Shown here: piece after piece, positions 16,050 through 40,090 of the stretch
Layout of the letters: each line of letters opens with the position of its first letter
Numbering within the stretch: position 1 is the first letter of the stretch
Origin: a virus
DNA: 64,000 nucleotides
Virus record (IMG/VR): IMGVR_UViG_3300010885_050098
Location: 1-64,000 of that record
Reading direction: 5' to 3' (one strand)
Notes under the pieces: model-generated
Told to the model about the DNA's origin: nothing
Seen by the model: only the letters and a program-made list of their open reading frames with translations
Databases searched by the model: none
Made by a program: the position numbers and the translations under genes

Positions 16050-16109
16050 GGGGAGAACATAGCAGGCGGGCTACTGTGTGGCAAATTTCCCCATGTTAGT
16101 ATTCCCCCT

Positions 16110-16994
16110 ATGAGAGAAGTACAGCCATGTGGGACCGAGGCGGGCTATAAGCGCCATAAGTACTACAAGGAAGAAAAGTGTCAACCATGTAAGGATGCTC
16201 ACAACATCTACCGCAGAGCCCACTACAACAAGGATTCAAACGCGGTAGCGGGTAGAAAATACAAGGAAAAAACAAACGCGCCTAAAAAACTAAAGAAAGC
16301 TAGAAAAGCTCTCCTTATCGATCTTTACAAGTTAATCGAAGTCAAGAGGTACAAGGAGTACCTTCAAATTAAAGAACGAGCTAAGGCTGTTGGTTATCCT
16401 CCAATTATCATCACAGATCGCGAGCCTAAAGAATCTAGAGAAGAAATTACAGAAAGAGCCAATGCTAGACGTCAAGCGCAGATTGAGCGTTCAATTGCTA
16501 TCAAAACTAAACGAGCAATTGCTAGAGCAGAACAAGAAGAGATTTTAAAGCAAAAACGTGCTGAGCGAGTTAAAAAGAAAAACCAGCATGGTGTTGCCAT
16601 GGGTGACTACGATAGGTGTAGAAAATTAAACGGTATTGCGTGTGATCCGTGTAAAGCCTATGTTGCTAAATATATGCGAGAGTATGCTCGTAAGAATCCT
16701 GAGAAGACTCGTGAGTGGAGCAGGGGTCAAAACAGAAGACGTGATAAGCGAATTCAAGCAAATGGCTTTGAGTTTTACAATACTGATGATGTTCTTCGCA
16801 AATGGGGCTATGACTGCCACATCTGCAATGAGCCAATCGATTTCAAGGTTTCACGGCAATGCGGCGATCCCGGTTGGGAAAGAGGACTGCATTTGGATCA
16901 CGTATTGCCAATTAGTAAAGGTGGAGCTGACGTGCTCGAGAATGTAAAACCTGCACATGCCAAGTGCAATGTCTACAAACGCGATCTCGTGTAA
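16110..16994 (+). CDS. HNH endonuclease with N-terminal zinc repeats
   Basis: A 294-residue protein from the ATG at 16110; the frame can be read further upstream but this is the first sensible start. Two similar cysteine units lie near residues 7-27 (CGTEAGYKRHKYYKEEKCQPC) and 170-185, joined by a long basic helical stretch. The C-terminal HNH domain has C-H-I-C near residue 238, HLDHVLPISKGG from residue 261 and a final AKCN. It is probably a homing or DNA-processing nuclease. It stands alone on the plus strand at the point where the two arms diverge. Confidence 0.8.
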   Translation: MREVQPCGTEAGYKRHKYYKEEKCQPCKDAHNIYRRAHYNKDSNAVAGRKYKEKTNAPKKLKKARKALLIDLYKLIEVKRYKEYLQIKERAKAVGYPPIIITDREPKESREEITERANARRQAQIERSIAIKTKRAIARAEQEEILKQKRAERVKKKNQHGVAMGDYDRCRKLNGIACDPCKAYVAKYMREYARKNPEKTREWSRGQNRRRDKRIQANGFEFYNTDDVLRKWGYDCHICNEPIDFKVSRQCGDPGWERGLHLDHVLPISKGGADVLENVKPAHAKCNVYKRDLV

Positions 16995-17109: not shown

Positions 17110-17125
17110 TCGAACACCTGTTCGA
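17110..17125. promoter_or_regulatory. LexA/SOS box 1
   Basis: TCGAACACCTGTTCGA is a perfect palindrome except for the central two bases and fits the Gram-positive and actinobacterial LexA site (CGAAC-N4-GTTCG). It ends exactly ten bases before the TGCAAACTC box of cassette promoter 1. Confidence 0.85.
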
Positions 17126-17134
17126 ATAACTATC

Positions 17135-17176
17135 TTGCAAACTCTATTGACCCGACCCTATGCGCTCGCGTATGTT
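17135..17176 (+). promoter_or_regulatory. Cassette promoter 1
   Basis: Shared box TTGCAAACTCTATTGACC; TTGACC is a candidate -35 and GTATGT or TATGTT a candidate -10 at 17-18 bases. The leader then forms hairpin TCGCAC-acaa-GTGCGA at 17184-17199, and GCAAAGGGGCTGT precedes the ATG. An alternative reading has TCTATT as the -10, which would place the SOS box on the -35. Confidence 0.65.
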
Positions 17177-17221
17177 TCTCCTATCGCACACAAGTGCGAA
17201 CGAACCGCAAAGGGGCTGTAT

Positions 17222-17395
17222 ATGACACGCAAGGACTTCGAGTTAATCGCTCAAGTAATCAAAGCACAACGCAAGCCACACAATGACACCGCAACACTCG
17301 ACGAATTAACTCGCGAGTTTGCCTACGCACTAGCCGACACTAACCCACGCTTCGACACTCACCGCTTCATCGAGGCTTGCAAGGTGAGCGCATGA
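17222..17395 (+). CDS. Small phage protein, cassette 1
   Basis: A 57-residue helical protein from the ATG just after the AAAGGGGCTGT motif. An earlier in-frame Met at 17135 lies within the promoter and is rejected. The pattern FAYALADTNPRFDTHRFIEAC resembles short conserved phage proteins that end in R-F-x-x-A-C. Function unknown. It is the first gene of a four-gene coupled set. Confidence 0.7.
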   Translation: MTRKDFELIAQVIKAQRKPHNDTATLDELTREFAYALADTNPRFDTHRFIEACKVSA

Positions 17396-17577
17396 AACTC
17401 AACCGACGAGGCGAGCGCGTTCTCGCGTTCTACATATTCTTCACAATGGCGCTGTTCGCTGGCGTTCTAGTAATGGGGGCAAACTTCCTACTTACTCATC
17501 ACCAAGTAATCGACCAATCAACCTGCCACCAAACGGAGGACGGGTTGTCTTGCAAATGGAATTGGGAGGCAAAATGA
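17392..17577 (+). CDS. Single-TM protein, cassette 1
   Basis: A 61-residue protein joined to the gene before by ATGA. A basic start (MKLNRRGER) is followed by one membrane segment at about residues 10-34 and a short outer part with two cysteines. Function unknown; it might alter the host membrane early in infection. Confidence 0.65.
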   Translation: MKLNRRGERVLAFYIFFTMALFAGVLVMGANFLLTHHQVIDQSTCHQTEDGLSCKWNWEAK

Positions 17578-17918
17578 CACAAGGAACCGAATTCAGAAAG
17601 GCGCAAGCCGAAGCACTAGCCAACCGCACCGCGTGTTGGATATGCAAGAACTACTTCGACCGCAAGGCAGGCGAGATGTCCTATCTCCTCGCTTATGTAT
17701 TCGTCGGCAAAGTGGGAACTCTTGAACAAGAGATAACCGCTTACAACTTCGACAAGGTAGAAGACACTCGCAAGCCCGTCTTCGAGAAGCAATCTCACCT
17801 TGTCTGTAATCTGTGCGAGGAGAACCATGTTCTCGCCTACGCTGTGGAGAATATCTACCCTAACGGCGGATACCACTCAACTCGCAAAGCAACCGACCTT
17901 CTATGGGATGAGGCGTAA
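17574..17918 (+). CDS. Zinc-binding hypothetical protein, cassette 1
   Basis: A 114-residue protein starting at the ATG in the ATGA overlap. C-W-I-C near residue 22 and C-N-L-C near residue 79 look like two halves of one zinc site. No family recognised. Confidence 0.65.
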   Translation: MTQGTEFRKAQAEALANRTACWICKNYFDRKAGEMSYLLAYVFVGKVGTLEQEITAYNFDKVEDTRKPVFEKQSHLVCNLCEENHVLAYAVENIYPNGGYHSTRKATDLLWDEA

Positions 17919-18181
17919 TGAAACGCGAGGACTTAGAGAAAATGATTCACTTCATGGCTGGCGGAGTAGAAACCGCAGACGAGATCAAATTCGTAGATAA
18001 ACACCTCGAAGGCTTTAACACCTTCCTACTGGATATGACTACTCACCGATTGGTTCAAGCTGGGATTGAGCTCGAGGAAGCTCAGTCCATGCTGCAAGGC
18101 CTGGTTCAAGTGAGCCGCATGCTCGGAGCTTCTCAGTTCCAAGAGTTCGTGCAGTTTCATCAAATCGTAGACCAAATATAA
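17918..18181 (+). CDS. Helical hypothetical protein, cassette 1
   Basis: An 87-residue, mostly helical protein coupled by TAATG. It ends six bases before the cassette terminator. No motif recognised. Confidence 0.65.
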   Translation: MKREDLEKMIHFMAGGVETADEIKFVDKHLEGFNTFLLDMTTHRLVQAGIELEEAQSMLQGLVQVSRMLGASQFQEFVQFHQIVDQI

Positions 18182-18187
18182 ATAGAA

Positions 18188-18222
18188 GGGCGTCCGCTGA
18201 TCCTGGCGGGCGCTCTTTTTTT
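18188..18222 (+). terminator. Terminator of cassette 1
   Basis: GC-rich stem GGGCGTCCGC / GCGGGCGCTC followed by seven T. The loop contains GATCCTGG, a sequence repeated in this region. Confidence 0.85.
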
Positions 18223-18244
18223 ATGCGCCGCGCCGGGGCGCCAA

Positions 18245-18271
18245 ATGTTTGTGTTGGAACCCGCCCTCCCT
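18245..18271 (+). repeat. Inter-cassette element, copy A
   Basis: ATGTTTGTGTTGG then CCGCCCTCCCT. A hairpin TCCCTaaAGGGA and a GGGAGAGA tract follow, and cassette promoter 2 starts about 50 bases later. Confidence 0.8.
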
Positions 18272-18320
18272 GTTCCTAATCCCTAAAGGGAAGGGGGAGA
18301 GACGCCGGGCAGAAATTGGT

Positions 18321-18360
18321 CTGCAAACTCTATTGAATATGTCGGTGGTAGATGATTGAG
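18321..18360 (+). promoter_or_regulatory. Cassette promoter 2
   Basis: CTGCAAACTCTATTGAAT gives the shared box plus candidate -35 TTGAAT. TAGATGATT, also found in promoter 3, stands in the -10 region. The leader hairpin is ATGGC/GCCAT and the start-associated motif ATTGGGGCTGTT abuts the ATG. Confidence 0.6.
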
Positions 18361-18408
18361 TTCTCTCATGGCAAGCAACAAGGCAAGCCATTATAGATTG
18401 GGGCTGTT

Positions 18409-18879
18409 ATGGGTCTTGATATGTATCTCCACGCTAAGAAGTATGTTAGCGGTTGGTCGCATGAGAAGGATACGAGCGAGTACCAAAGACTACGCGCTCT
18501 TTATCCTGAAGTCGAGATTGACGAGGGTTCTCCTTCGATTGAACTCGTCTTTACTGTTGGGTATTGGCGCAAGGCTAATGCCATTCATAGTTGGTTCGTT
18601 CAGAATGTCCAAGAAGGGCAAGATGATTGCAAGCCGTACTATGTTGAACCAACCGACTTAATGAAGTTGAAGGAAGCATGCAGTTTGGAACTTCTAGTTC
18701 CTGCTGGTGGTGCTGGTGGTGGTGTTCTTGAACCTACTGCTGGTTTCTTTTTTGGTAATGCCGAACGCGACGATTGGTATTACGAAAATCTTAATCGCAC
18801 AATTCAGATTGTGGATAAGTGCCTAGCACTTCCGCAAGACGGCTGGCATTGGTCTTTCGAATATCAGTCTAGTTGGTAA
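18409..18879 (+). CDS. Conserved phage protein (MGLDMYL family), cassette 2
   Basis: A 156-residue protein starting MGLDMYLHAKKYVSGW, with YWRKANAIHSWFVQNVQ and a later GFFFG. This arrangement is seen in hypothetical proteins from many phages and bacteria; the biochemical role is unknown. It is the only gene of the cassette. Confidence 0.75.
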   Translation: MGLDMYLHAKKYVSGWSHEKDTSEYQRLRALYPEVEIDEGSPSIELVFTVGYWRKANAIHSWFVQNVQEGQDDCKPYYVEPTDLMKLKEACSLELLVPAGGAGGGVLEPTAGFFFGNAERDDWYYENLNRTIQIVDKCLALPQDGWHWSFEYQSSW

Positions 18880-18891
18880 TCCGTCGAAGGG

Positions 18892-18920
18892 AAGCGCCTC
18901 AGAAATGGGGCGCTTTTCTT
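18892..18920 (+). terminator. Terminator of cassette 2
   Basis: AAGCGCC / GGGCGCTT stem with a T-rich tail (TTTTCTTTT). It directly abuts cassette promoter 3; there is no inter-cassette element here. Confidence 0.85.
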
Positions 18921-18960
18921 TTGCAAACTCTATTGTATTTATTCAGTAGATGATTTAAGT
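18921..18960 (+). promoter_or_regulatory. Cassette promoter 3
   Basis: TTGCAAACTCTATTGTAT, then TAGATGATTTAAG as in promoter 2. The leader hairpin is CAGCGC/GCGTTG and the start motif is the variant TTAGGGGGTTAGC before ATG 19008. Confidence 0.6.
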
Positions 18961-19007
18961 TTCTCTTATCAGCGCAAGTCGCGTTGATATTTTCTTAGGG
19001 GGTTAGC

Positions 19008-19259
19008 ATGGCAAACGATTTTTGGAATAAGTATTACGGCTCTTTCGTTGGAGCAAAGATTGTGAAGTTCGTTGGCATGAATACTGAGGACGATATGGGA
19101 GATGGTTTCCCTGAGTTCGAAGTCAAGTTCGCAGATGGCGAGATTGGGATTATCTCTATCTCACAAGACCCTGAAGGTAATGGTGGCGGATTTATATTCG
19201 GCTTAGCATTACCACAAGACCACCCACAAGGTGGGGAAGTGAGGACACTCAATGCCTAG
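19008..19259 (+). CDS. Hypothetical protein, cassette 3
   Basis: An 83-residue acidic beta-rich protein (GAKIVKFVG, FEVKFADGEIGIISIS). It overlaps the next gene by eight bases. No family recognised. Confidence 0.65.
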   Translation: MANDFWNKYYGSFVGAKIVKFVGMNTEDDMGDGFPEFEVKFADGEIGIISISQDPEGNGGGFIFGLALPQDHPQGGEVRTLNA

Positions 19260-19440
19260 ATTAGAAATCGGTGACAAGTATGTCACTCAGAAGTCGGGTG
19301 TCGAAGGGATTATCCTTGAGATAGTCCCGAACGATACTGGATCCGTTCGCTTGCGGTTGGTAACACCTGCCCTTGAAACTCGTTGGACAACCTATGTCCC
19401 CGAGCGATTGGGACAAGTAAAGGTTTCATCAGCCCCCTGA
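19252..19440 (+). CDS. Small beta-barrel-like protein, paralogue of 37216-37419
   Basis: A 62-residue protein. GDKYVTQKSGVEG, EIVPNDTGS and RWTTYVP match GDIYTTHSSGVKG, EIVPNKTGT and RWTTHIP in the right-arm gene, so the two are paralogues. The pattern suggests a small SH3- or KOW-like barrel. Function unknown. Confidence 0.7.
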   Translation: MPRLEIGDKYVTQKSGVEGIILEIVPNDTGSVRLRLVTPALETRWTTYVPERLGQVKVSSAP

Positions 19441-19477
19441 TTGAAAACTCCTGAGCATGAGTTAAAAGTGCTCAACC

Positions 19478-19527
19478 AAAAAGCTCGTGGATCCTGGCAC
19501 CGCGCCGGGAGCTGCGAGCTTTTTTGT
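19478..19527 (+). terminator. Terminator of cassette 3
   Basis: AAAAAGCTCG / CGAGCTTTTTT stem with a structured loop that contains GGATCCTGGC. Confidence 0.8.
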
Positions 19528-19550
19528 TTGTGTTGAGACCCACCCTCCCT
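19526..19550 (+). repeat. Inter-cassette element, copy B
   Basis: GTTTGTGTTG then CCACCCTCCCT; the first AT of the motif is replaced by the terminator T-run. A hairpin TTAC-ttc-GTAA and GGAGAGA follow. Confidence 0.8.
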
Positions 19551-19601
19551 GTCTCTGACTTACTTCGTAAGGGAGTTGTTGGAGAGATGCCGGGCGCAAG
19601 C

Positions 19602-19617
19602 TCGAACAGATGTTCGA
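19602..19617. promoter_or_regulatory. LexA/SOS box 2
   Basis: TCGAACAGATGTTCGA, a palindrome with the CGAAC-N4-GTTCG core. Its last base is ten bases before the TGCAAACTC box of promoter 4, the same spacing as SOS box 1. Confidence 0.85.
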
Positions 19618-19625
19618 AAAAATAG

Positions 19626-19667
19626 TTTGCAAACTCTATTGAAAGTAGGAGAGCGAGCGCATAATGT
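19626..19667 (+). promoter_or_regulatory. Cassette promoter 4
   Basis: TTTGCAAACTCTA followed by TTGAAA, 17 bases, then TAATGT, one of the clearest -35/-10 pairs of the set. The leader has hairpin GCGCA/TGCGT and GAAAGGGGCTGT (19697-19708). Confidence 0.75.
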
Positions 19668-19711: not shown

Positions 19712-20167
19712 GTGCTAACGAATAAACAAGCACTTCAGGCTTATACGGAAATCGTAGAAGCCTACGCAAGCAACGAACCCTTGCCGACTACTTCGGTGAA
19801 TATGTTCGTTGAAAGTATCAAAGACTTACAAGTCCGCGATTATCTCCTAGGTCATGCTCCAACGACCTTCGGTGCTCAGGGTGCGATTGAATTCGTAACC
19901 TCTATCCTTCCGCTAGTAGATGAGGGCGCTCGCGCTCCCTTCTACACTGTATTGTCTGCCTTCTATTATGAGGCTGGCGATAGCGAACTCGCGTTCGTAT
20001 CATTAGTTCAAGCACAATTGCTTGACCCACAATATGCTCTAGCAAAATTGTTTGAGCGTGTTTACAAGGCTGGTTGGCCAGCCACCGCACTCGCGCAATT
20101 GCGCGTTGAACTTCACCCAAAGGTTGCAGAAACCTTTGAGGTTGAAACCGAGTTGGAGTTCGCGTAA
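19712..20167 (+). CDS. DUF4192-like protein, cassette 4
   Basis: A 151-residue helical protein. I start at the GTG three bases after GAAAGGGGCTGT; an in-frame ATG at 19664 lies inside the promoter. RDYLLGHAP followed by a helical part with YYEAGDSELAFVSLVQAQ and LDPQYALAKL resembles the C-terminal half of DUF4192, a family known mainly from actinobacteria and of unknown role. It is one of two units with an SOS box, so induction after DNA damage is plausible. Confidence 0.7.
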   Translation: MLTNKQALQAYTEIVEAYASNEPLPTTSVNMFVESIKDLQVRDYLLGHAPTTFGAQGAIEFVTSILPLVDEGARAPFYTVLSAFYYEAGDSELAFVSLVQAQLLDPQYALAKLFERVYKAGWPATALAQLRVELHPKVAETFEVETELEFA

Positions 20168-20292: not shown

Positions 20293-20320
20293 ATGTTTGT
20301 GTTGGACAGCCCTCCCACCC
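20293..20320 (+). repeat. Inter-cassette element, copy C
   Basis: ATGTTTGTGTTGG then CCCTCCCACCC, with the two pyrimidine blocks in swapped order compared with copies B and F. A hairpin CCCT-ttc-AGGG inside a longer stem and GGAGAGAG follow. Confidence 0.8.
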
Positions 20321-21012: not shown

Positions 21013-21036
21013 ATGTTTGTGTTGGCCCTCCCACCC
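21013..21036 (+). repeat. Inter-cassette element, copy D
   Basis: ATGTTTGTGTTGG joined directly to CCCTCCCACCCC, then CTCCC/GGGAG pairing and AAGAGAGA. Promoter 6 follows about 65 bases later. Confidence 0.8.
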
Positions 21037-21100
21037 CGTTTATAGGGAGTATGTATGTAAGAGAGACTCAGCTGCCCGGTGGATCCTGGCAAAACTAGTC

Positions 21101-23142: not shown

Positions 23143-23169
23143 ATGTTTGTGTTGAAGCCCACCCTCCCT
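23143..23169 (+). repeat. Inter-cassette element, copy F
   Basis: ATGTTTGTGTTG then CCCACCCTCCCT, hairpin TCCCT/GGGA and AAGAGAGA. Promoter 8 follows about 60 bases later. Confidence 0.8.
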
Positions 23170-23232
23170 CATTATGGGAAATATATATAAAGAGAGATCC
23201 CTGGCCGTGTGACGTAGCTCACAAGAGAGAGT

Positions 23233-24558: not shown

Positions 24559-24583
24559 ATGTTTGTGTTGACCCACCCTCCCC
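24559..24583 (+). repeat. Inter-cassette element, copy G
   Basis: ATGTTTGTGTTG then CCCACCCTCCCC and the best hairpin of the family, CCCTTATCCC-ttc-GGGATAGGG, followed by TAAGAGAGA. No cassette gene follows. Confidence 0.82.
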
Positions 24584-24595
24584 TTATCCCTTCGG

Positions 24596-24633: not shown

Positions 24634-24849
24634 TGTGATGGCCATCACATGGAGAGAGTTGAGTCGGATCGACTCAAGTTTTATGAGCCGGAATGAGCAA
24701 TCTCGAAGAGAGAGAGAGGATCGAAGATCCTGGCACATTCATGCAGAGAGAGAGAGAAGAGAGAGAGGCATGCAAGCTCCGAAGGAGCTGGCTAGGCTAC
24801 TGTCTCAGCATGCGAGACGATGAGCAGTCGTGCCACCAGGTCAAATGCT

Positions 24850-24865
24850 TGTTTCACGTGAAACT
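24850..24865. promoter_or_regulatory. parS-like ParB-binding site
   Basis: TGTTTCACGTGAAACT matches the bacterial chromosomal parS consensus TGTTTCACGTGAAACA in 15 of 16 positions, including the full 14-bp palindrome. No parA or parB gene is seen in the window, so it could be read by host ParB. Confidence 0.75.
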
Positions 24866-25755: not shown

Positions 25756-26042
25756 CAATAAACACATATGAAAAACTAAGACCAATTGCGGATGTATGGG
25801 CGTGGCAACATAAAGGAAACTGCGTTGGTAAAAACACTGAATTGTTCTTTTTAGAAACAAGTGTCCGAGGGCCAAATAAAACTAGACAAGAAAACGAAGC
25901 AAAGGCAATTTGTAAAGGTTGCCCAGTTAAAAATGAATGTTTAAACCACGCTTTAACTACTCCTGAATACTACGGTGTATGGGGCGGTTTAAGCGCCGAT
26001 GAACGTTCTTTTTATAGCGCAAACCGAAGGGAAATTGCATGA
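25752..26042 (+). CDS. WhiB-family iron-sulfur regulator
   Basis: A 96-residue protein with the four WhiB cysteines: Cys24, then Cys54-x2-Cys57-x5-Cys63. The family G-V-W-G-G turn follows (YYGVWGGLSADER). WhiB proteins are confined to actinobacteria and their phages, bind a 4Fe-4S cluster and act with the primary sigma factor. A phage copy may redirect host transcription or block a host WhiB. It is coupled to the methyltransferase gene by ATGA. Confidence 0.92.
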   Translation: MTINTYEKLRPIADVWAWQHKGNCVGKNTELFFLETSVRGPNKTRQENEAKAICKGCPVKNECLNHALTTPEYYGVWGGLSADERSFYSANRREIA

Positions 26043-26908
26043 AAGCAGTATCGTTATTTGCAGGTGTAGGCGGGTTTGATCTCGCACTAGAACGAGCTGG
26101 TGTAACTGTTGTTGCATCATGTGAAATTGATAAGTACGCACAAAAGGTGTTGGCACAACACTTTCCTAATTCAACAATAATCAACGATGTAAAGGATGTA
26201 ACAGGTGATCAACTTAAACAACTCGGATTCGACGGTAGTGACGGAATTATTGTCGGAGGATTTCCATGCCAAGACTTGTCCGTTGCGGGAAAGCGAGCAG
26301 GACTCGCTGGATCTAGGTCAGGACTCTTCTGGGAAATCTGTCGCATCCTCGACGAAACGAAAGCGAAGTGGTTCGTCCTCGAAAACGTCCCCGGTTTGCT
26401 GTCATCTAACGACGGACGAGATATGGGAACCGTCATCCAAGCGTTGGTTGAGCGCGGGTACGGGGTCAGTTACAGGATTTTGGACGCTCAGTACTTCGGA
26501 GTCGCCCAAAGACGTCGCAGAGTCTTCATTGTCGGATGTCTTGGAGATGACGGGCGAGCATCTGCAGAAGTACTCGCTCTCGTTGAAGGCATGCGAGGGC
26601 ATCTTGAGACGAGCAACACGAAGAGGGAAAAAACTTCCCGAGGCTCTTCATCAAGCACTGGAGAATCAGACAAGAAAATAGCACGCATGCGTGGCTTTGG
26701 TGACTACGAGTTAGATCATAAAGCAGGCGCATTAAAAGCACGTGATTGGAAAGATGCTACCGATCTTGTGTATCCCGAAGGAAATGTAGGAACTATAACT
26801 ACAGCCTTTGGCGCAAAGAACTATTCAAATCACCAAGAACTCATGGAAGGAAGCGTGGTTGTATATGACGAACTGGTTCGTGAAAAGTCGCAGAGCGCAA
26901 AACGTTGA
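26039..26908 (+). CDS. C5 cytosine DNA methyltransferase, N-terminal part (frameshifted)
   Basis: 289 residues with motif I (SLFAGVGGFDLAL), motif IV with catalytic Cys77 (GGFPCQDLS), motif VI ENV at 115-117 and motif VIII (QRRRRVF). The frame ends at 26908, while motifs IX-X lie in another frame just downstream. A single +1 step near 26875-26905 would join the two parts. A Ser/Lys-rich segment lies in the middle. It may be a pseudogene, a sequencing error, a programmed frameshift or a split enzyme. The DNA target is unknown. Confidence 0.85.
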   Translation: MKAVSLFAGVGGFDLALERAGVTVVASCEIDKYAQKVLAQHFPNSTIINDVKDVTGDQLKQLGFDGSDGIIVGGFPCQDLSVAGKRAGLAGSRSGLFWEICRILDETKAKWFVLENVPGLLSSNDGRDMGTVIQALVERGYGVSYRILDAQYFGVAQRRRRVFIVGCLGDDGRASAEVLALVEGMRGHLETSNTKREKTSRGSSSSTGESDKKIARMRGFGDYELDHKAGALKARDWKDATDLVYPEGNVGTITTAFGAKNYSNHQELMEGSVVVYDELVREKSQSAKR

Positions 26909-27416
26909 TGACTTTGAAACATGGGTTGAGGGGGCGGTTACTCCTACATTGAACGCATTCGAAAACAATGGTGATACTCGCGCCACAGTTCTTATCTTCT
27001 ACGGCAATCGTGTTGATGATATAAGAATGCAAGGCGCCGTAATCAATACATTACAAGCCCGCATGGGCACAGGTGGAAACAACATGCCTATGGTGGCAGT
27101 TACAGAACAGGATCAAGATATGGCACAAGCAGGTAACTTTGAGTTGTATGACTTTCCCAAGGAAGAAGTTGCTCCAAGTCTTAACGCTCTTCGTGCTAAA
27201 GACACACTTACATACGAAGAAGGAACTGTTGTAAGGCGGTTAACTCCACGTGAGTGCGAGCGCCTACAAGGATTCCCCGATGATTGGACTGCATCACAGT
27301 CTGATTCACAACGATATAAGCAAATGGGTAATGCTGTTGCAGTGCCTGTTGTTCAATGGATAATAAGTGGATTGGTGGAAGTAAATGCAAGACTTAATGA
27401 AGAATCTAAAGGATAA
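26865..27416 (+). CDS. C5 cytosine DNA methyltransferase, C-terminal part
   Basis: 183 residues if it starts at the ATG at 26865, which has GAAGGAAG 12 bases upstream. It carries RRLTPRECERLQGFPDDW (motif IX region) and RYKQMGNAVAVPV (motif X), both needed with the N-terminal part for activity. The two ORFs overlap by about 44 bases, so separate translation of two subunits is possible. Confidence 0.75.
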   Translation: MTNWFVKSRRAQNVDDFETWVEGAVTPTLNAFENNGDTRATVLIFYGNRVDDIRMQGAVINTLQARMGTGGNNMPMVAVTEQDQDMAQAGNFELYDFPKEEVAPSLNALRAKDTLTYEEGTVVRRLTPRECERLQGFPDDWTASQSDSQRYKQMGNAVAVPVVQWIISGLVEVNARLNEESKG

Positions 27417-39814: not shown

Positions 39815-40090
39815 TTAACTAGTTTTTACTTCGAATACGATGGCTGAAATTTGACCATCATGGCTTTCAATACTGGCAAAACCGGGTACGCAAACTAGAT
39901 CGATACCTCGTGGCGCTGTATAACCACGTGCGATTGCAATAGCTTTTACGGCCTGATTAACGGCTCCAGCACCTACTGCACGGATCTTGCATCCACGAGT
40001 CTCATAGACGCTGTGGGCGATGGCTGAGGCCACCGACTGAGGGTTAGAACCTGCACCTACACGTAGGATGTTCTCTTCTTGCTCTGACAT
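39815..40090 (-). CDS. SpoVS-like protein
   Basis: A 91-residue protein that follows the SpoVS family over nearly its full length: RVGAGSNPQSVASAIA, IRAVGAGAVNQAVKAIAIARGY and GIDLVCVPGF. SpoVS is an Alba-like fold protein first found in sporulating bacteria and also present in non-sporulating ones. It probably binds nucleic acid. A phage copy could regulate or package DNA or RNA. Confidence 0.88.
   Translation of the reverse strand: MSEQEENILRVGAGSNPQSVASAIAHSVYETRGCKIRAVGAGAVNQAVKAIAIARGYTAPRGIDLVCVPGFASIESHDGQISAIVFEVKTS

Follow-up and report, generated by a model that had tools for sequence, protein, structure and literature searches.

Temperate phages are known to make use of the LexA of their hosts (PMC4551915; PMC9437464). 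In the Bacillus phage GIL01, which is temperate, host LexA sites (dinBox1 and dinBox1b) lie in the phage promoter P1, dinBox1 being centred at +17, and the SOS state of the cell sets transcription, with repression requiring the phage protein gp7 (PMC4551915). Operators for host regulators also have a precedent outside classical lysogeny in the CtrA sites of phages of Alphaproteobacteria. These sites recur at promoters of genes without characterised function, in phages unrelated to one another, and are associated with 'lytic deferment'; the signal there is that of the cell cycle, and binding was shown in vitro (PMC9437464). The LexA motif of Streptomyces venezuelae, tCGAAC-N4-GNNCGa (PMC9380542), is the same palindrome as that of two boxes that we analysed in the first 64,000 nucleotides (the window) of the IMG/VR virus record IMGVR_UViG_3300010885_050098, where they stand before two small gene cassettes. 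With moderate confidence, we read these boxes as host-LexA operators within a recurrent actinophage promoter module, in which LexA would hold the cassettes down and the SOS response would free them.

As proposed here, the virus would resemble GIL01 in placing host LexA sites in its promoters and letting the SOS state set their transcription. In contrast to GIL01, however, the boxes lie at about -65 beside a second operator, and searches of this virus and its relatives G013, G015 and G003, which did not cover every gene and did not look for serine integrases, found no LexA (PF01726), Crp-type helix-turn-helix (PF13545) or tyrosine integrase (PF00589). The likeness to the CtrA system is that a host master regulator has sites at promoters of genes not yet characterised, across phages that are not related; here the signal would be DNA damage instead, and binding is predicted. 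Relative to the actinobacterial SOS box, the difference is one of position, since the phage boxes have an activator-type site downstream of them. No account of a module of LexA box and second operator was found in the literature on lytic or virulent phages, mycobacteriophages or GlxR, the coverage of which was incomplete and by which novelty is unproven.

Box 1, TCGAACACCTGTTCGA (17110-17125), stands at the head of a rightward cassette array, and box 2, TCGAACAGATGTTCGA (19602-19617), lies upstream of cassette 4, which encodes a DUF4192-like protein. No strand is assigned to either, and both fit the palindrome TCGAAC-N4-GTTCGA. A sequence-only reading of the window had described them as perfect SOS boxes that would switch on both cassettes upon DNA damage; the 16-mers were recovered exactly where it had placed them, with zero mismatches. 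They are the only perfect matches to TCGAACNNNTGTTCGA in the whole 76,357-base record, in which a reversed control pattern gave 0 matches. A symmetric position weight matrix, built from 26 SOS sites of acI (Nanopelagicales) genomes, scored boxes 1 and 2 at 26.2 and 27.4, far above all other sites in the record; the third-best site, located elsewhere, reached 12.9, and the maximum in 200 simulated Markov genomes of matched length and dinucleotide make-up was 18.4. The two boxes are not chance occurrences.

The element TGCAAACTC, exact or with one base changed, is present in eight cassette promoters (at 17136, 18322, 18922, 19628, 20371, 21101, 21887 and 23234). Both boxes end exactly 10 nt ahead of this element (17136 and 19628), with 20 bp from the centre of the box to that of the element, and the six remaining promoters have no box, which leaves boxes at the first and fourth of the eight only; on spacing and distribution alike the sequence-only reading was accurate. 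One correction concerns TGCAAACTC, which sits just upstream of the likely -35 (TTGACC or TTGAAA). In cassette 1 the upstream element (17130-17145, + strand) ends in TGCAAACTCT and is operator-like, though here half palindromic only, and is followed by a likely sigma-70-type promoter, TTGACC-N18-TATGTT (17147-17176, +). In cassette 4 the corresponding element, ATAGTTTGCAAACTCT (19622-19637, +), is palindromic in 14 of 16 positions with a TTTGCAAA core, and the likely promoter was read as TTGAAA-N17-TAATGT (19639-19667, +), downstream of which lies a 5'-untranslated hairpin with a counterpart in the relatives. On these predicted starts, the box centres fall about 65 bp before the start of transcription, and the boxes are clear of the core promoter. 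The TTTGCAAA core resembles actinobacterial PrpR/RamB sites (PMC6765138; PMC4448153), a likeness that is a lead only, because the majority of promoters in the window keep just the right half of the element.

The boxes are conserved in related phages. The PolA relatives G013 (87% identical) and G015 (69%) carry one perfect box each; that of G013 precedes the orthologue of the DUF4192-like gene (72% amino acid identity), as does that of L118, a close relative of G013 with an identical DUF4192 protein. In G003 and G002, whose DUF4192 protein is 48% identical, the box stands in the same place as TCGAACAGATGTTCGG, with one mismatch; relatives chosen by GP88 had appeared boxless by the perfect pattern before these one-mismatch boxes were found. 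A box precedes the DUF4192 gene in four phages of three lineages. Upon alignment of the four promoters, AAGCTCGAACAGATGTTCG formed 19 consecutive invariant columns, the longest invariant run in a region with a mean column identity of 69%. The operator next to it differs, being TGCAAACTC in this virus and TGTGAN6TCACA, or a one-mismatch form, in the other three. Such CRP/GlxR-like palindromes, the operator type at most cassettes of the relatives, also occur twice in the window (23208-23223 and 24634-24649). With starts again predicted, the box centres of the relatives lie at -77 and beyond, near -77 in G013 and G003, and no box overlapping or abutting the core promoter was seen in this virus, G013 or G003.

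Boxes at the array head recur in four lineages, namely this virus (G000), G015, the L182/L215/L225 group and L200. The box of G015 comes after an HNH gene, as does box 1, and a 22-nt sequence at box 1, AGCTCGAACACCTGTTCGAATA, recurs in the L215 group with a CRP-like site downstream, whereas the box of L200 is flanked by CRP-like sequences. In the L215 group and in L200 the box separates leftward genes from the rightward cassette array. Boxes found inside coding sequence (L104:403, L105:2511 and L005:2345) were treated as chance or unclear.

The record codes for a contractile tail (sheath, tube and baseplate wedge), a genuine RecA, PolA, a DnaB-type helicase, a Toprim primase and a class II ribonucleotide reductase, together with two WhiB proteins, one GP88 protein and one DUF4192-like protein. 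The matches to GP88 among phage records were nearly all from mycobacteriophages and Streptomyces phages, and the virus is therefore an actinophage. It shares a low GC content, WhiB genes and glycosyltransferases with freshwater whiB actinophages, including the isolated Planktophila phages E7 and F5, but these two are about 39 kb, whereas this virus is larger and has a contractile tail, RecA, PolA and a cassette array (PMC10202952). From its GC content of 43% and its freshwater actinophage features we infer a host of the acI clade. As links to the host, a search for PolA in genome contigs found none and the ribonucleotide reductase was uninformative.

SOS sites of acI were taken from a set of 12 contigs, one labelled Omnitrophota, fetched with a 16S probe, of which ten genomes were used. 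LexA was detected in nine of the ten, and each genome (0.6-1.6 Mb) held one to three copies of TCGAACNNNTGTTCGA, the reversed control pattern never being found. Inspected copies lay ahead of recA, in the gap between lexA and the divergently oriented LysM gene beside it, and before a small open reading frame (ORF) and a dnaE2-like polymerase gene, as identified from translations; some of the dnaE2 boxes are the identical 16-mer to TCGAACAGATGTTCGA. The same motif thus stands at the SOS genes of the presumed host clade, where a different one would have spoken against the sequence-only reading.

An IMG/VR query with the exact LexA box and TGCAAACTC gave no match, because the relatives use a different second operator. 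A scan for CGAACANNTGTTCG followed, after 3-33 nt, by TGTGAN6TCACA matched 65 stretches, corresponding to 33 non-redundant promoters, where by our own base-count arithmetic fewer than one match would be expected even in 100 Gb. In a follow-up set of 63 loci (L226-L288, 606 kb), with Markov shuffles as controls, there were 94 LexA boxes against 0.0 expected (about two thirds of them selected by the scan, the rest not), 131 CRP-like sites against 0.6, and 9 DtxR/IdeR-like TTAGGNTANCCTNA sites against 0.1. The operators are concentrated at promoters in several phage lineages. Among the 50 cases with TTGAC[A/T] at most 45 nt downstream of a CRP-like site, the gap was exactly 10 nt in 36, the fixed phasing that an activator and a -35 would be expected to show. 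In L226, several LexA, DtxR-like and CRP-like sites are stacked ahead of one promoter; iron-box palindromes of the DtxR/IdeR type (TTAGGTTAGCCTAACA) lie between LexA boxes and CRP-like sites in L226, L238, L243, L267 and their relatives. WhiB homologues turned up in 18 of these 63 loci, which speaks for actinobacterial hosts.

The match to acI sites, the conservation and the recurrence support the assignment of the boxes as genuine actinobacterial LexA-type operators, and to this extent the sequence-only reading stands. Simple SOS repression of the cassettes has become less certain, because the boxes are centred near -65, without core-promoter overlap, unlike those of host SOS promoters. It is very likely that host LexA binds both boxes. 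That these viruses sense the DNA-damage state of the infected cell is likewise very likely, since perfect host-type sites here are joined by the same site before the same kinds of gene in many related wild viruses.

In the module as we envisage it, the LexA box would be followed by a second palindromic operator (CRP-like in the relatives, TTTGCAAA-type here), a sigma-70-type promoter and a small gene cassette. As long as the cell is undamaged, LexA already present would occupy the box, and the head cassette and the DUF4192/TPR cassette would be held down. The positions of the boxes, given the predicted starts, exclude an ordinary SOS-type overlap with polymerase, and a GIL01-type placement for direct promoter repression was not found, the boxes lying upstream of both the -35 and the second operator. 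As the box is too far upstream for a direct polymerase block, LexA would be likely to act by keeping an adjacent activator, or the alpha C-terminal domain of RNA polymerase, from making contact upstream. When the SOS response is turned on, by prior damage or by the infection itself, RecA-stimulated cleavage of LexA would release the cassettes. Anti-activation or lost contact with the alpha C-terminal domain, relieved by SOS, is the most economical reading; the direction of regulation, the anti-activation, the SOS induction and any part for the phage RecA, which the sequence-only reading had thought possible, are what we infer.

Several observations weigh against LexA holding the cassettes down in this way. 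The SOS boxes of acI touch or overlap the core promoter, and in the dnaE2 cases they come immediately after a -10-like TATNTT, whereas the phage boxes lie about 65 bp upstream of the predicted start. The acI homologue of DUF4192, considered as a possible host SOS gene, is near lexA but has no LexA box. Although acI genomes encode a Crp-type regulator, they almost entirely lack perfect TGTGAN6TCACA (0-1 copies each), and the reader of this site and the exact host are therefore uncertain. Finally, the gap between box and second operator varies from 3 to 33 nt, which weakens models needing precise protein-protein contact.

The variable spacing and the distant position would also fit boxes serving as a decoy, whereby two boxes per replicating genome soak up LexA and host recA, dnaE2 and lexA rise to the benefit of the phage. 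With one to three perfect boxes per acI genome, two per phage copy could titrate LexA, and some relatives hold several boxes within one promoter (L226). For a decoy, placement at promoters would be unnecessary, yet boxes are found again and again ahead of DUF4192 and at the head of the array, and we consider this explanation unlikely. We give no more credence to LexA acting with a CRP-like factor as an upstream activator or architectural element, so that the cassettes would be most active in healthy, SOS-off cells. The box does precede a CRP-like site whose distance to the -35 is fixed at 10 nt, and the DtxR/IdeR-like boxes of some relatives are upstream too, but LexA nearly always represses and positive control by it is rare.

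It is improbable that another protein reads the palindrome, or that it acts as an RNA or DNA hairpin. The inverted repeat is perfect, with six bases in each arm, and the CRP-like sites are likewise without a known reader; however, the central A..T preference and the variation of the outer bases agree with host LexA sites, the outer pair is broken in TCGAACAGATGTTCGG of G003, box 2 is located past the terminator-like hairpin of cassette 3, and acI genomes carry the motif at SOS genes. Recent shuffling of cassettes and upstream DNA among phages, with no present function, is very improbable as the source of the conservation: upstream repeats are common to several cassettes and the DUF4192 proteins of G013 and L118 are identical, but the 19-nt block is the longest invariant run at 69% mean identity, DUF4192 is just 48% identical between this virus and G003, and 33 non-redundant promoters share the module.

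Returning to the LexA-operator reading, LexA control is familiar as the induction switch of temperate phages, whereas here it recurs in many environmental actinophages, paired with a second operator in a fixed promoter geometry, and in the four phages examined neither a tyrosine integrase nor a LexA gene was found when searched for. It lets the question of how DNA damage in the host could be sensed by such phages be framed in testable form, and it provides a concrete grammar for their promoters, from LexA box through CRP-like site and 10-nt gap to TTGACA, along with a fresh handle on the timing of small phage genes without assigned function. More tentatively, and with rather more doubt than belief, many uncultivated actinophages may combine operators of several host global regulators, LexA, CRP/GlxR-like and in some genomes DtxR/IdeR-like, so that the state of the cell would select accessory cassettes without a lysogeny switch.

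The genes of the boxed cassettes are small. An HNH endonuclease gene (16071-16994, +) directly precedes box 1, the same neighbour as in G015. The first gene of cassette 1, c1a (17222-17395, +), encodes 57 amino acids of the MTRKDFELIA family (phrog_19432); this MTRKDY family also provides the first gene after some LexA-CRP promoters in other loci. Several such cases were noted, but the pairing is not a tested association because the loci were chosen for their boxes, and among unselected loci this virus is the sole boxed case. The second gene (17392-17577, +) encodes a small protein with a single predicted membrane span (MKLNRRGERVLAFY...), with homologues in G013, G003, L118 and L200 that lie at or near the array head in relatives. 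Its N-terminal span shows a weak likeness to the LxRRGR membrane segment found in the SOS-linked LysM protein whose gene neighbours acI lexA. A relationship to this LysM/YneA-type protein is an unproven lead; the host proteins ranked first of 610 ORFs, but at 6-10 bits in a biased set. The genes c1b (17574-17918, +; 114 amino acids, with CxxC pairs) and c1c (17918-18181, +; 87 amino acids, with a homologue in G013) have no family match. The cassette 4 gene (19712-20167, +) encodes a protein with a C-terminal DUF4192-like match (PF13830, E 8e-11); its AlphaFold model is all-helical and TPR-like, with eight helices (pLDDT 81), and Foldseek returned weak TPR-type matches alone (best E 0.016).

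Ahead of most cassettes lies a repeat of the form TGTTTGTGTTG-(short arm)-CCCRCCCWCCC-(complementary arm), at 18244-18270, 19525-19550, 20293-20318, 21013-21038, 23143-23168 and 24559-24584, which is present also in G013, L118 and G003. The arms seem to covary (GGTAC/GTACC, GGAAC/GTTCC and GAGAC/GTCTC), which suggests a conserved hairpin. In a long gene-poor stretch ahead of 25135, TGTTTCACGTGAAACT (24850-24865) agrees in 15 of 16 bases with the bacterial parS consensus, and this parS-like site could hint at plasmid-like maintenance or ParB capture. A C-5 cytosine methylase is split into two overlapping frames (26039-26908 and 26808-27416, together 26039-27416), suggesting a frameshift or a sequencing error. 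On the minus strand, the C-terminal part of the product of 33495-34061 matches the proteasome subunit family (PF00227, E 6e-8), and 39815-40090 encodes a SpoVS homologue (PF04232, E 6e-29).

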